From Thermococcus zilligii AN1 (GTDB lineage: Archaea > Methanobacteriota_B > Thermococci > Thermococcales > Thermococcaceae), in NCBI RefSeq assembly GCF_000258515.1, contig NZ_AJLF01000001.1, positions 930,001-994,000 of the forward strand: a stretch of 64,000 nt of DNA, given 5' to 3'. The notes beneath the pieces are model-generated. The model did no database searches, was not told the DNA's origin, and saw only the letters and a program-made list of their open reading frames with translations. Within the stretch, counting starts at the first letter, position 1, and every line of letters begins with the position of its first letter. Below are positions 3,102 through 8,667 of the stretch, in pieces. Both the position numbers and the translations under genes were made by a program.

Positions 3102-4493
3102 TCATCTGGCCCTACACAGGGACAGCAAATGTTCCCTCAGGTTCCTGGCAACACCTTCCCTGAGAACGACTCCATTCCTGGTGATGAAGACCTCCCTTCC
3201 CACCCTGGACAGCTCGTATCCGAAAAGGCCGAAGGGAGTCCCATCAAAGAAACTGAAGATGCTTTCCTCCGGCCCAAACATGTCGGGAATCCAGTAATTA
3301 TAAACTCCCTCAAGGCGGGGGTACACAACGGCGGCACTGCCACCTGCAAGACGGGAATACGAGTATATTTGGTAAAGTTCCTCGCTTTTTCTCACCAGTT
3401 TTCTCTTCCACTGCCCCATCATTTTCACGAGCAGACTGCGGTACTTAACCTCGATTACGCACCTTCCATAATCCGTCTCAACCAGTATATCTGGGAGAGG
3501 TGGACCAAAGGTAAAGACGGCGCCCAGTTTTGACTCCACTTTTTGAGCGCCCTCAACGATGTGGGGGAGCCTGTAGTCCTGGTACACCGCGGCTTCCCCC
3601 TGCAGAACCCTTCTTATTGTGTGATAGACAAGGGTTTCGAAGAGGTATGACATGTCCATAAAAATCCCGCGCTGGACAGGGTTCTCCCGTTTTTTCCTGC
3701 CGAAACCTTCGAGAACTATCATCGCAAGGGTATAAACTGGCCTGAACCTTTCATTGAGGGAATTAAAAGACACCCTGCCCGGGTCATCATCCTTAAGCCT
3801 GCCAACTCCCCTAAAGTATTCGAGAAGGGTACTGGCTTCCCTTCTAACTCCTTCCCAGCTCGAGTTCTCAGCCACCGTCTCAAGTGCGGCTTTCAGCACC
3901 CTGTTTAAGGGGTTATCAGTCCCCAGAACCGTGTGCCTAATCGGAATATCCAGGCTTTCAGGTGTCGTTCTTATCAACCGTGAAAGGAGAACCCTCCCCC
4001 GGAGGGTCCTGGAGTTCTCTTCCACCTCGCTGTATTCCTGGTACATCCCATGGAATATTTTCTGCCCAAGTTGGGAGGTGTAGAGATAAAAGAACATCTC
4101 GTGGATCAGCTCGTCCTCTTCCCTGTGTGCAGAGACTGCGCGCTCTATATCGTGCTGGCTCATGCCCAGGTTGCCGCTCAGGTTCAGAAGGCTGAGAAAG
4201 AACTTCATGGAACGTCTGTGGTCCGGGTCGTTTCTGTACGGCTTTGGAAGAACCTGTATCATGAACGGCTCGTCTCCGAGATAGTACGCGAAACCCACGC
4301 TGCCATGTGCCTGGATGTAATAGTCACCCCTGCTGACGTCGTATCTCAGGCTCAGGACATCGCCCTCGCGGCCATAAATGCTGTTTATGAATCCAAAAAA
4401 CCTCTGGAGCTCGGAGGGGGATACTTTTATCCCCTCCGCGTGAAGACCCCGAAGATACTTTCTCTGGAACTCGTAGATGGTCACGGTTCTCAT
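3102..4493 (-). CDS. mcrC: McrC-type nuclease subunit of an McrBC restriction system
   Basis: The protein has 463 residues and matches the McrC (5-methylcytosine restriction component) family. An N-terminal all-beta/helical adaptor region (1-260) contains the YEFQ and LPKPYRND motifs common in McrC. The C-terminal half is a PD-(D/E)xK nuclease with a PDILVE segment (Asp335) followed by VIEVKY (Glu348, Lys350). In known systems McrC binds the McrB hexamer, stimulates its GTPase and cuts DNA. The start ATG overlaps the mcrB stop by four bases (ATGA), so the two are translated together. The catalytic residues look intact. Confidence 0.9.
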   Translation of the reverse strand: MRTVTIYEFQRKYLRGLHAEGIKVSPSELQRFFGFINSIYGREGDVLSLRYDVSRGDYYIQAHGSVGFAYYLGDEPFMIQVLPKPYRNDPDHRRSMKFFLSLLNLSGNLGMSQHDIERAVSAHREEDELIHEMFFYLYTSQLGQKIFHGMYQEYSEVEENSRTLRGRVLLSRLIRTTPESLDIPIRHTVLGTDNPLNRVLKAALETVAENSSWEGVRREASTLLEYFRGVGRLKDDDPGRVSFNSLNERFRPVYTLAMIVLEGFGRKKRENPVQRGIFMDMSYLFETLVYHTIRRVLQGEAAVYQDYRLPHIVEGAQKVESKLGAVFTFGPPLPDILVETDYGRCVIEVKYRSLLVKMMGQWKRKLVRKSEELYQIYSYSRLAGGSAAVVYPRLEGVYNYWIPDMFGPEESIFSFFDGTPFGLFGYELSRVGREVFITRNGVVLREGVARNLREHLLSLCRAR

Positions 4494-6634
4494 TCGGACC
4501 CCACCAGCCTGCGAAGGGCGTCCATGAACTCATCAAGGCTCATCCAGATTATCCTGCCCCTCTCGTCTATGAACTCAAAGCCCGGATAAAGGGATCTAAG
4601 ATGCTCCCAGTTCCCGTAGAAGTACTCCTGAAAGAGGGGCAACACCTTGTGGTAGAAGACCATGTAGAGTGCCTGCCTTGGATCGTCTGCGGAGGGGATA
4701 TCGAGAAAGTAACCGTGCCCGATGGTATAGTCTTTGCCCTTCTCCTGCTCGATGATTGAGTTTATCCTCGTCAGGAGGTGTTCCAAGTTTATGCCATCCA
4801 CGTTCACATCTCTGAGCTTCTCCGGATCCGGAGAAAGTTCCACGAACGCGAATCTTCTCCTGAGTGCAATATCGAGCAGGGCTATGCTCCTGTCGGCCGA
4901 GTTCATGGTGGCAATGATGTATAGGTTTGGGGGCAGTGCGAAAAGCTCCCCCGAGTAGGGGAGGGTCACTATGGCCTCCGTAGGGGCACCCAGCCTCTTA
5001 TCCGGGTCAAGGAGGGTTATCAGCTCCCCCAGGATTCTGCTTATGTTACCCCGGTTGATCTCGTCGATTACCATGTAGAAATCCCTCCTGGGAACAATAG
5101 GAGCCCCCTCCCCTGCCCGTCTGTTTTTCAGGAATTCCTGGACGGCCGTCTTCATGTCCTTGTACCCCACGTTCTCCCCGCGTTTTCGGAATTCATCCGG
5201 CAGAGAATCGTATATTGCTCTCACGGCGAGGCGCTTAAACACGCCATCGGAGACAGTATATGTGACTCTTCCTTCCTTTTCAATGGGTCTGAAACCCTCC
5301 ACGAAATCCTCATAGCTGTACGACTGGTGGAACGTGACAAACTCCGCGTTCTTGGCAGTTTTTAGTGTCAGATGCGTCTTACCTGTGCCGGGTGGCCCGT
5401 ATATGATGACCTGTTTGAATCTCCTGAGCAGGGGAACCAGGATCGTCTCCCCAGGATTCTCATCCAGACCCGCCTTCTGATGTCTCTCACCATGTGCTTC
5501 GGAAGCCGTGTTCTCTAGCTTTAAATCATTGCTCTGCCCCTTTGGCGCCTCAAGGCGATACAGGTAGTCAACTTCTCTGCGGAGGAAGTAATAAAAGGCC
5601 CCGCCTGAGCTTTTACCCCCGCTTCTTCCGAAGTAAAGAGTTTCACCATCTTTGGAAATCCCCGCGAACTTAGGGTCAACGATACCGGGCACGTACCTCC
5701 CCAGAACCGCATCTCCCCGGAAATCTTCCGCCCCTATCTCTTTGGATGAGTTGAGGATGTCAAAGGATATGAACCCCGCCCTCAGGTTTCCCCCGTAGAC
5801 ACCGGTTATGACAAAAAGTCCCCTGGAAGTGAACGAAAGGAACACCAGCTCCCCGGGCAACAGCGCCGTTTTTATCCCCGAAGGAGTCACAATTTGAATC
5901 TCCTTATCACCTTTACTACCGAGGACAGCCATAACAGAACCGTCTTTCAGCCATATGTCACCTACCTGCCGCCCTCCCTTGGGCACTATGCTGGACCTCG
6001 AGATGACCTCAATGCCATCCCAGAATTCCAGCGGGGAATAGTAGGGGAACATGGGGAGGGAAATCCTTGCCAACTCCAAGCGCGCCCTTTGATTCGTTCG
6101 GAATGTGTAAAGCATGTAAAGTGAGTCGTCAGTATCCTTAACGGAATGGATATAGGCAAACCCGTCCTGCGGCGTTGGAATCTTAATAACCTCAACATCC
6201 CCGGGTGCAAAGTACTCAACCTTGTAATCGCAGAACACTACAAGCCTTTCGTGGGGAGTGAAGCTTGCGTAAAGGGGTAGCTTGGTAAAAGTTACTGACA
6301 ACACCCCAGATTCCGGATCTGTCAGCTGAACCGGGTATATTCTGACCTCCCCCGCTCCGCATTTCGTAAAGACGGCAAGCCTTTCCTCCCCGGGGAGCAT
6401 TACCACCTCACCGGTGCAGGGCACAGGGATTCCCTTTTCCCACCCTCCGACCGGCTGCCCCTCTGTCCCAAAAACGTGGATGAACCTTGAGTCGTCATCC
6501 AGCCTCACCAGAACCGCAATATACTTTCCATTGGGGAACAGCTTCATGTCTTCAACGACGAACCCAAAATCGCCATACTCCGTGTCCAGGAACCGGTTTA
6601 TCAAATACATTGGGGTTTTCAACGGCCTGAGCAT
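4490..6634 (-). CDS. mcrB: McrB-type AAA+ GTPase with an N-terminal beta-propeller-like region
   Basis: Motor subunit of the restriction system (714 residues). The C-terminal 330 residues are a clear McrB AAA+ domain: Walker A GPPGTGKT (413-420), Walker B MVIDEINRG (from 521), the McrB signature MNSADRS (577-583) and the arginine-rich RRRF that follows. Residues 1-365 are not any modified-base reader I recognise (DUF3578, EVE/YTH, SRA). They contain about seven short beta-rich repeats of the form hydrophobic-LFPNGKYIAVLV, MLPGEERLAVFT, SFTPHERLVVFC, WLKDGSVMAVLG, SFTSRGLFVITG, ISKDGETLYFG, like propeller blades. A polar linker (about 366-396) joins the halves. An in-frame TTG at 6646 falls at the predicted transcript start; the ATG at 6634 has GGTGG five bases upstream. 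Confidence 0.88.
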   Translation of the reverse strand: MLRPLKTPMYLINRFLDTEYGDFGFVVEDMKLFPNGKYIAVLVRLDDDSRFIHVFGTEGQPVGGWEKGIPVPCTGEVVMLPGEERLAVFTKCGAGEVRIYPVQLTDPESGVLSVTFTKLPLYASFTPHERLVVFCDYKVEYFAPGDVEVIKIPTPQDGFAYIHSVKDTDDSLYMLYTFRTNQRARLELARISLPMFPYYSPLEFWDGIEVISRSSIVPKGGRQVGDIWLKDGSVMAVLGSKGDKEIQIVTPSGIKTALLPGELVFLSFTSRGLFVITGVYGGNLRAGFISFDILNSSKEIGAEDFRGDAVLGRYVPGIVDPKFAGISKDGETLYFGRSGGKSSGGAFYYFLRREVDYLYRLEAPKGQSNDLKLENTASEAHGERHQKAGLDENPGETILVPLLRRFKQVIIYGPPGTGKTHLTLKTAKNAEFVTFHQSYSYEDFVEGFRPIEKEGRVTYTVSDGVFKRLAVRAIYDSLPDEFRKRGENVGYKDMKTAVQEFLKNRRAGEGAPIVPRRDFYMVIDEINRGNISRILGELITLLDPDKRLGAPTEAIVTLPYSGELFALPPNLYIIATMNSADRSIALLDIALRRRFAFVELSPDPEKLRDVNVDGINLEHLLTRINSIIEQEKGKDYTIGHGYFLDIPSADDPRQALYMVFYHKVLPLFQEYFYGNWEHLRSLYPGFEFIDERGRIIWMSLDEFMDALRRLVGSE

Positions 6635-6667
6635 TACAACCACCAATAGAAATAGAGAACAGCCCTA

Positions 6668-6677
6668 CTTAAATACC
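6668..6677 (-). promoter_or_regulatory. TATA box of the mcrBC operon
   Basis: GGTATTTAAG on the minus strand lies about 25 bp upstream of a predicted start near 6647 and 38 bp upstream of the mcrB ATG. It is the only TATA-like element in the gap and fits a short leader carrying the ribosome-binding site. Confidence 0.6.
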
Positions 6678-6696: not shown

Positions 6697-6930
6697 GCCT
6701 CGCTCTTCAAGGCAGGTTCAGTAACCAACGGCCCCTACATCGGCGAAATTGGAGCCTGACAAGGCACCAAAGAGGTCACTCATGTCAAAAAGACATCAGC
6801 GTGGACGTGGATTGTGGCCAATGATGGGGAAGTAGAAGCCACAGTATACCTCCTAACCTCAGGTATGAGAGGCCATAGCCCAGCAGTCCAGAGGCAAGAA
6901 ACTGTTGACAGACGTTACTCCAAAGCCTGA
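6697..6930 (+). pseudogene. Degenerate fragment resembling a DDE transposase
   Basis: Read on the plus strand, one frame of 77 codons runs through this stretch, interrupted by a stop at 6757. The reading NGPYIGEIGA-stop-...TKEVTHVKKTSAWTWIVANDGEVEATVYLL resembles the core of IS6-type transposases, where a GE-hGADET motif is followed by an alternating hydrophobic strand. It has no start and no terminal repeats that I can see, and it runs into the 3' end of the neighbouring gene. Family assignment is tentative. If correct, it marks an old insertion between the McrBC genes and the topoisomerase operon. Confidence 0.35.
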
Positions 6931-7415
6931 TCCTCGCGGACACGACCGGGGCTATTCCGAGAAGGAAGGAGAAGAAGATCAGGCTCCCCGAAAGGGTGCC
7001 TCCGCTTCAGGTATTCCTCTGCCCCGGAGGCCTTCTCAAGAAGGTGGTAGACTGTCCTCAGCGGGATCCCTAAGGAGCGGCTTATCTCTCTGGGTTCCTT
7101 GCCCGAGGAGAACATTTCAAGGACGGTTTTGACAGTCTCTCCACTGTACTTCCTCGGCCTCCCCCGGGGATGGCCCTCCGGAACGAGCTCCACGCCGAGC
7201 TGGGAAAGGGCGCTTATTATCCTTCTGGAGACCTTTGGATAGAGACTTGGCGGACAGCTGATTCTCCTAACGCCAGGGGCCCTCTCGAGGATGTGAACAA
7301 CTATCTCCTTCGTCGGGCGGAGGTTTATGTAGACCTCGGTAACGTTCTCGTTAAGGCTTTTATCGAGCTTCCTGAGGAGTTCACCATTGTTTTTGGCCTT
7401 GACCTCCACCCTCAT
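6915..7415 (-). CDS. DUF1699-like domain fused to a helix-turn-helix domain
   Basis: This 166-residue protein has two parts. Residues 1-80 match the archaeal DUF1699 pattern: NVTEVYINLRPTKEIVVHILERAPGVRRISCPPS, then a leucine-rich stretch ending in GVELVPEG. Residues 85-135 are a resolvase-type helix-turn-helix, GRPRKYSGETVKTVLEMF...PREISRSLGIPLRTVYHLLE. The last 30 residues (PFGEPDLLLLPSRNSPGRV...) look low in complexity and overlap the transposase-like fragment, so the C-terminus may be altered. The ATG at 7415 with GGGGTGA upstream was preferred to one 25 codons earlier lying inside the preceding gene. It is the last gene of the topoisomerase VI operon. Probably DNA-binding; role unknown. 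Confidence 0.8.
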   Translation of the reverse strand: MRVEVKAKNNGELLRKLDKSLNENVTEVYINLRPTKEIVVHILERAPGVRRISCPPSLYPKVSRRIISALSQLGVELVPEGHPRGRPRKYSGETVKTVLEMFSSGKEPREISRSLGIPLRTVYHLLEKASGAEEYLKRRHPFGEPDLLLLPSRNSPGRVREDQALE

Positions 7416-7419
7416 CCTC

Positions 7420-8667
7420 TCACCCCTGGAGAAGGGAGAGGAACTTCTTGGCCTTGTCGCTCCTCGGCATGAACTTCTCGAATTTGTCAACGTTAGAGAA
7501 GAGGGCCGTGTGGAGGCCGGAAAGCACGAACTTCTTTATATCCTCGGTCAGGTCCTCCACGTTTATTCCGAGCAGTTCGCTTACCTTCCCTTCATCCCAC
7601 GGGGTGATGCCGTAGAGGATAATCCCTCCCAGGGTATAGTTCGGAATCGAACTTATGTCCGTTCTTTTTCCCGAGAGCATCTTCTCGATCTCGCACTTCT
7701 TTATGAGAAGCATGCTCCCATAACCCGTCTTGAAGTCAGGTTCGCGTTTGAACGGCAAATCAAGCAGGGAGTAGTGGCAGTCAACGCACTGTTTGATACC
7801 GGGATAAAGGCCAAGGGTCTCCCTCTCGGCGGGGGACGTGAGGAAATAGTACCGGAATATGTCGAGGGCGAGCTTTTCCGGGCCGTCCTTGGGATCCAGG
7901 AGAGAGTACGCAAGGGAAAGGCTGTCCACGGTGTAGTGGTTGTTGATCAGGACTCCCTTAGTCTTAATAAAGCTCAGAACCCGCCATCTAAACCTGCGCC
8001 CGTACCTCTTCCTGAGTTCTTCCTCTATGTCAGCGTCCGCCGGAAGGTCGATCTTGTCCCTCTTCAGCCTATTGTCGCTCCAGTACTCAACCTCTATCCT
8101 CAATCCCCTGGTCCTGACGGTCCCTTTTTCCCTCAGCTTCCCCTTTATGAACTTAAAGGTCTCCCTGATCTCAACGCCTTCCCTGGAAAGCAGCCTCAGG
8201 ACGTCACCGGAATAGGGAAGATAGGGGAGAACTTCAATCCTGCCCAATTTAACCGGCTTTTCTTTGGCCTTTATTTTGCCAAGCTCGTCTTTCTTAATGG
8301 AATCGACTTTTATCGGAGATTTTCCGAGATAGAACTCGTAGTTGGCCGAGATGTGTGCTAAGGCCATCCTGTGTGCCGTTATAGCGGTGTGGAGCCTCTC
8401 AAGGGCCAGGGCCCTGTTTCTTTTTTTTCGGTAGAGCCACTGTATGTGCGGGTCACGACTTTTCTTGTCCATACTGTGGAGGGCCGGAATTAACTCACCG
8501 ACCCTCCTTTCCAGTTCCTCTTCCATCTCGTCCAGAAGGGAGAGGTTTTTCTTCAGAGTATAGGCCAGCTTAACAACGTCGAAATCCTCAAATAACCCGG
8601 CCATATCTATTCCTATATCATCGAGCATCTTGTTGACCTGAGACACCAGCTCCTCGGTCGTTGTCAT
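7420..8667 (-). CDS. Conserved archaeal protein, probably DUF530 family
   Basis: Soluble, highly charged 415-residue protein. The N-terminal 130 residues are helical and likely coiled-coil ([35 protein letters not shown]). A central basic alpha/beta region follows, then a C-terminal region with an isolated CVDCHYS motif. I place it in the archaeal DUF530 family from overall character and genomic position; that is not certain. Its ATG overlaps the top6A stop by four bases and the DUF1699-HTH gene starts four bases after its stop, so it is translated as part of the topoisomerase VI unit. A role linked to DNA topology or repair is inferred only from that coupling. Confidence 0.7.

Follow-up and report, generated by a model that had tools for sequence, protein, structure and literature searches.

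In the genome of Thermococcus zilligii AN1 (1.76 Mb), we found an McrBC gene pair whose McrB carries, ahead of its GTPase motor, a domain that is well supported by structure prediction as a seven-bladed beta-propeller (residues 1-362). Positions below refer to the window, the whole stretch of 64,000 nucleotides that was analysed. A reader of modified DNA is what defines McrBC systems, and a propeller in that place suggests a motor-nuclease that something else can aim. A restriction role for propeller-McrBC is also well supported. The propeller reading offers an explanation for findings that have been filed as ordinary 5-methylcytosine restriction, namely an effect on unmethylated DNA and a growth cost of deletion, and the trigger is testable now in T. 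kodakarensis, which offers an ortholog with an existing deletion strain (TS902), plasmids and genetics.

An intact McrB motor and McrC nuclease

The two genes overlap by four bases (Table 1). The C-terminal half of McrB proved to be the textbook AAA+ domain that the first-pass annotation had described, with GPPGTGKT, VIDEINRG and MNSADRS all present and with M577, N578, S579, D581, R582 and S583 of the last motif invariant among the 21 McrBs compared. Pfam matched the protein with AAA families alone, all within residues 399-714, and the nearest PDB sequences to the motor were those of T. gammatolerans McrB (6ut3/6ut5, 1e-69). The adjacent McrC carries PF10117 and a PD-(D/E)xK motif and is intact, as had been claimed. 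Motor and nuclease together place the pair among McrBC systems; for the propeller-McrB, GTP-specific hydrolysis stimulated by McrC, and a hexameric state, are implied by the motifs alone. Upstream of the mcrB ATG lie a GGTGG ribosome-binding site (6644-6640) and, further upstream, a TATA-like TTTAAGTA (6673-6666), itself preceded by a purine-rich stretch. The TATA-like box and the GGTGG just before the ATG at 6634 suggest that the pair has its own promoter; an alternative mcrB start is the TTG at 6646.

Table 1. Features of the propeller-mcrBC locus in the window
Feature	Position	Strand	Basis and remarks
mcrC, nuclease partner, 463 aa	3102..4493	minus	PF10117 E 1.6e-50; reading frame intact
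McrC nuclease motif P334-D335 ... E348-x-K350	3444..3494	minus	D335, E348 and K350 invariant in 20/20 sequences
mcrB, 714-aa McrB	6634 (ATG)..4490 (stop)	minus
McrB-type AAA+ GTPase motor, residues 399-714 + stop	4490..5440	minus	AAA_5 E 1.4e-13; PDB sequence match 6ut3/6ut5
McrB signature MNSADRS (MNxxDRS), residues 577-583	4886..4906	minus	Sequence
Walker B region MVIDEINRG, residues 521-529	5048..5074	minus	Sequence; D524 and E525 invariant among 21 McrBs
Walker A GPPGTGKT, residues 413-420	5375..5398	minus	Sequence; invariant 21/21
Disordered linker, residues 363-398	5441..5548	minus	pLDDT <50 at 364-396 in full-length model; length differs between relatives
N-terminal helix (6-23) and predicted seven-bladed beta-propeller, mcrB residues 1-362	5549..6634	minus	AlphaFold2, Foldseek
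Predicted blades, at residues about 25-71, 77-116, 122-153, 159-214, 223-258, 262-313, 319-361
Putative mcrB promoter and ribosome-binding site	6640..6673	minus	Sequence

A predicted seven-bladed propeller at the N-terminus

With an alignment of 21 natural sequences as input, AlphaFold2 modelled the N-terminal domain at a mean pLDDT of 89.8 and a pTM of 0.88. After the helix at residues 6-23 the model was nearly all strands, about 28 in seven four-stranded sheets, with blades starting at residues 25, 77, 122, 159, 223, 262 and 319. This spacing of 37-64 residues bears out the seven beta-rich repeats, 40-60 residues apart, noticed in the first-pass annotation. A full-length model recovered the same strands, with blade 7 less confident. 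Sequence repeats from blade to blade were weak, yet above shuffles: the summed profile similarity was 238, whereas 12 column-shuffled controls gave 168-205, and the top-scoring blade pair reached 22.1 vs at most 17.3, so the seven repeats go beyond chance. A-B hairpins were in register for blade pairs 1-2, 1-5, 3-6 and 3-7.

A Foldseek search of the PDB gave 193 matches at E up to 1e-3 (best 5e-8), and the top matches listed were propeller-containing proteins. The best were the propellers of WD40 proteins, the clathrin terminal domain, NirN d1 and prolyl oligopeptidase; viral matches were propeller-like as well. TM-scores were modest, mostly 0.35-0.48, so the class of fold is evident although no specific propeller family can be assigned and no close relative is known. 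The predicted ring, and with it assignment to the seven-bladed propellers, follows from the strands in seven groups, the pTM and the fold matches. Structure prediction and fold search, the check proposed in the first-pass annotation, thus returned seven four-stranded sheets and propellers.

Sequence searches with residues 1-362 gave no family match in Pfam, NCBIfam, PADLOC, PHROGs or the PDB, nor was there one up to residue 375, and profiles of WD40 and other named propeller families matched at chance level only. A PDB sequence match to 3lhi (E 0.75) and matches to antibodies were set aside as chance, and a known reader domain was ruled out by the family searches. No Pfam modified-base reader (ADAM/DUF3578, EVE/YTH, SRA) was present in any of the 21 members; with the fold search pointing to propellers, the earlier statement that this is not a known modified-base reader was upheld. 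The pair is classed as McrBC by its motor and nuclease and should not be filed as a demonstrated Type IV (modification-dependent) system, since a modified-base reader was looked for and not found.

The invariant charged residues D48, R50, K91, D136 and K241 all fall in one loop class (BC and DA), with loops assigned to faces from strand order, not coordinates, and conservation was higher in the BC and DA loops than in the rest (p 0.017). We found no known DNA-binding signature in the propeller domain.

A cassette at one chromosomal site in Thermococcus

The propeller domain occurred in 21 of 94 Thermococcaceae genomes (19 of the 21 are nearly complete), all of a single genus, and was not found in 40 of the 61 Thermococcus genomes. 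It was absent elsewhere in the phylum, save for a marginal fragment in one genome (G109, E 0.0025, 79 positions), and the virus, phage and plasmid collections searched held no convincing homologs. In the genome-wide scan, the kept matches outside Thermococcus started only at residue 331 and are essentially motor, and other Thermococcaceae McrBs had N-termini unrelated to the propeller. All 20 relatives were McrB fusions with an overlapping mcrC (one mcrC cut by a contig end), which is the recurrence beside mcrC that the first-pass annotation had looked to for support. Two observations concern other McrBC systems. In an McrB of G020 (L199 2281-5043), an EVE domain (PF01878, 24.5 bits, just above cutoff) seems to interrupt the AAA+ domain, with Walker A on one side of it and Walker B on the other. 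In another genus of Thermococcaceae, mcrB genes beside mcrC are themselves broken by a stop or frameshift (L203, L208), a sign that unrelated McrBC systems decay.

The pair always sat at one chromosomal site, topo VI-DUF530-HTH-[mcrBC]-folE2, within the common gene order rio1, KH, top6B, top6A, DUF530, HTH, mcrB, mcrC, folE2, as far as contigs reach. In 19 genomes without the cassette the site was cleanly empty, with a short gap or a gap of ~800 bases and no mcrBC remnant. A gap of similar ~800-base size was seen between mcrC and folE2 in several mcrBC-bearing genomes, and in the one example of an empty-site gap of ~800 bases that was read, a DUF4129 membrane protein gene (L145 1480-2250) lies between the HTH gene and folE2. 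The DUF530 gene (PF04409, E 2e-27; window 7420-8667, minus strand) overlaps top6A by 4 bases and adjoined it throughout the genomes examined, its conservation being ~65-70% vs ~90% for top6A; its product is a possible partner of topo VI. The small HTH gene (window 6915-7490, minus strand) overlaps the DUF530 gene and in every case stood immediately before mcrB or, where the cassette is missing, before the empty site; its product is possibly a regulator, or a mere neighbour.

Presence of the pair changed about ten times on the tree of flanking genes, at least eight of these changes falling on well-supported branches. This tree paired the window with G020, a genome without propeller-mcrBC, and the McrB tree grouped it with G027, G052 and G062. 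Against the nearest relative, G027, dS was 0.22-0.41 for mcrBC vs 0.63-1.72 for neighbouring genes; against T. kodakarensis the order was reversed, mcrBC being 45-67% identical, most neighbours 83-92% and DUF530 65%. From the empty sites, the eight or more changes on the flank tree and a dS lower than that of the neighbours, we read mcrBC as a cassette that Thermococcus species exchange at a fixed position, a pattern typical for defence genes. Purifying selection acts on the propeller-mcrBC reading frames (dN/dS 0.03-0.2), which are intact.

Published data on the T. kodakarensis ortholog

The T. kodakarensis ortholog is TK0795-TK0794 ("McrBC1"), with a propeller domain of 45% identity, the same site and the same partner. 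Read from a GTG start at residue 10, the propeller-McrB of the T. kodakarensis genome (G024) has a calculated mass of 79,677 Da vs the 79.7 kDa listed for TK0795, and its gene precedes top6B (TK0799) by four genes; this match in mass and position identifies TK0795-TK0794 as propeller-McrBC. In the literature searched, published work on this pair made no mention of a propeller and annotated and discussed it as an ordinary 5-methylcytosine system.

Plasmid restriction data come from the text of a single paper, PMC13385129. Deletion of TK0794-TK0795 (strain TS902) gave the highest transformation efficiency together with reduced fitness. The gain was seen for autonomous plasmids and not for integrative ones; recombination may limit integrative transformation and so mask restriction. 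A similar trend was stated for dam-/dcm- plasmid, in a single sentence, and another sentence of the paper contradicts itself by using 'unmodified' twice. Methylated cytosine is the authors' own explanation of the effect. Unmethylated plasmid transformed about two orders of magnitude better. A gain from unmethylated DNA is reported for every strain, even where McrBC is missing (Figure 4 legend), and a lysate of strain TS904, in which both McrBC systems are gone, still degraded methylated plasmid, so methyl-sensing is at least partly done by something else. The plasmid data suggest that unmethylated plasmid is restricted too. With intact motifs, a low dN/dS and plasmid restriction by the ortholog, the system is very probably active, as the first-pass annotation had supposed. 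The deletion strain of the second T. kodakarensis McrBC grew worst; the second McrB (L194 1752-4238), presumably that of TK1009-TK1010, has ~400 residues ahead of its motor without a Pfam match.

TK0795 was also identified in isolated T. kodakarensis chromosomes (PMC7325993). The same preparation contained ribosomal proteins and V-ATPase, which indicates weak specificity of this association.

Proposed mechanism and alternatives

We propose that propeller-McrBC is a GTP-driven nuclease aimed when its propeller docks on a protein of invading replicons or on one of their protein-DNA complexes, a reading in which we place as much belief as doubt. The propeller would replace the modified-base reader of McrB and be tied to the GTPase motor by the flexible linker. 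As in T. gammatolerans, McrB would assemble in a GTP-dependent manner into a hexamer able to bind McrC, and the six propellers would surround this hexamer as aiming devices; in relatives, McrB hexamers bind one McrC and GTP drives DNA cleavage (PMC7680126). The target of one propeller face, rich in invariant charged residues, would be a protein, alone or in complex with DNA, that is typical of foreign DNA replicating autonomously, for example a replication protein or a replication intermediate, and docking there would load this DNA with the translocating nuclease. On this reading the cassette is a defence module that Thermococcus species swap among themselves at a single chromosomal site. The published effect, which appears even with unmethylated DNA and for autonomous plasmids but not integrative ones, favours such docking. 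It is possible, if doubtful, that the propeller recognises an invader protein as such, e.g. the replication protein of a plasmid or virus, and loads the motor-nuclease whether or not the DNA is modified.

Propellers can bind DNA, and the preference for a protein or ligand over DNA expressed in the first-pass annotation remains a supposition. On the other part of its claim, a different trigger, the published plasmid data favour something other than Dam/Dcm methylation (PMC13385129). The main rival to protein docking is direct reading of DNA by the propeller (a lesion, a structure or missing chromatin), with McrBC then cutting or processing it and no invader protein involved, which we consider rather unlikely. 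DDB2 recognises damaged DNA through its WD40 propeller, a DDB1-DDB2-DNA entry was among the Foldseek matches (rank 46, chain C, which may be either protein), and to our knowledge the characterised McrB N-domains bind nucleic acid. The conserved R50, K91 and K241 in one loop class would suit such a role, but the acidic D48 and D136 stand among them, so there is no clear basic patch, and no known DNA-binding signature was found. Co-isolation of TK0795 with chromosomes (PMC7325993) and the restriction reported with unmethylated plasmid (PMC13385129) are consistent with direct reading, but bare DNA alone fails to explain the difference between autonomous and integrative plasmids.

The propeller might instead be an unusual modified-base reader, in which case the pair would be a Type IV enzyme of the ordinary sort, new in the fold of its reader. 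The two-orders-of-magnitude advantage of unmethylated plasmid, credited by the authors to methylation, and general McrBC logic point this way; the same paper (PMC13385129), however, has that gain in all strains, even without McrBC, a TS904 lysate that degrades methylated plasmid without McrBC, and a similar deletion trend with unmethylated plasmid. On balance we find such a reader improbable. We know of no base-flipping propeller. Mainly housekeeping work in chromosome maintenance, linked to the neighbouring topoisomerase VI and with restriction as a side effect, is very improbable: the poorer growth of deletion strains (PMC13385129), the fixed location and the chromosome association of TK0795 (PMC7325993) speak for it, but absence from 40 of 61 Thermococcus genomes, clean empty sites and horizontal transfer are unlike a core function, and, the neighbourhood being the same with or without mcrBC, we set a functional link to topo VI aside.

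Comparison with known systems

The T. gammatolerans McrBC (PDB 6ut3-6ut8; McrB 613 aa; L207) shares with propeller-McrBC the AAA+ GTPase motor (1e-69), the McrC partner and the genus. Its N-terminal domain of about 200 aa is of another kind, YTH/EVE-type, and its genes lie at another locus, the propeller-mcrBC site being empty in its genome (L160; G019, taken to be T. gammatolerans from the 613-aa McrB). E. coli McrBC, which reads through ADAM/DUF3578, and LlaJI-type McrBC, which recognises unmodified sites through B3, follow the same modular plan of N-terminal specificity domain, GTPase motor and separate nuclease subunit, but their readers are small DNA-binding domains, whereas here the domain is a predicted 360-aa propeller. 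Homologs of McrBC specific for 6mA have also been noted (PMC12707154). CoCoNuTs likewise join an McrB-type GTPase to a non-standard specificity region, but they have coiled coils and an NxD motif and are nearly absent from archaea (PMC11090510), in contrast to the NSAD/NSTD motif and propeller found here. With its NSAD motif, residues 1-362 mostly in strands and no long helices ahead of the motor in the models, the McrB of the window falls outside that group. The main text of that census of McrBC systems (PMC11090510) lacked the words propeller, WD40 and Thermococc-, and no earlier report of an McrB with a propeller or WD40 was found among the literature matches listed, within the library searched.

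An E. coli protein that joins an Mrr-family nuclease to a seven-bladed beta-propeller is a demonstrated phage defence (PMC9519451). Unlike propeller-McrBC, it is a single bacterial protein with an Mrr nuclease and has neither GTPase motor nor McrC, yet this precedent makes a defence role for propeller-McrBC natural. T. kodakarensis McrBC1 (TK0795-TK0794; PMC13385129) differs in nothing essential from the Thermococcus zilligii pair.
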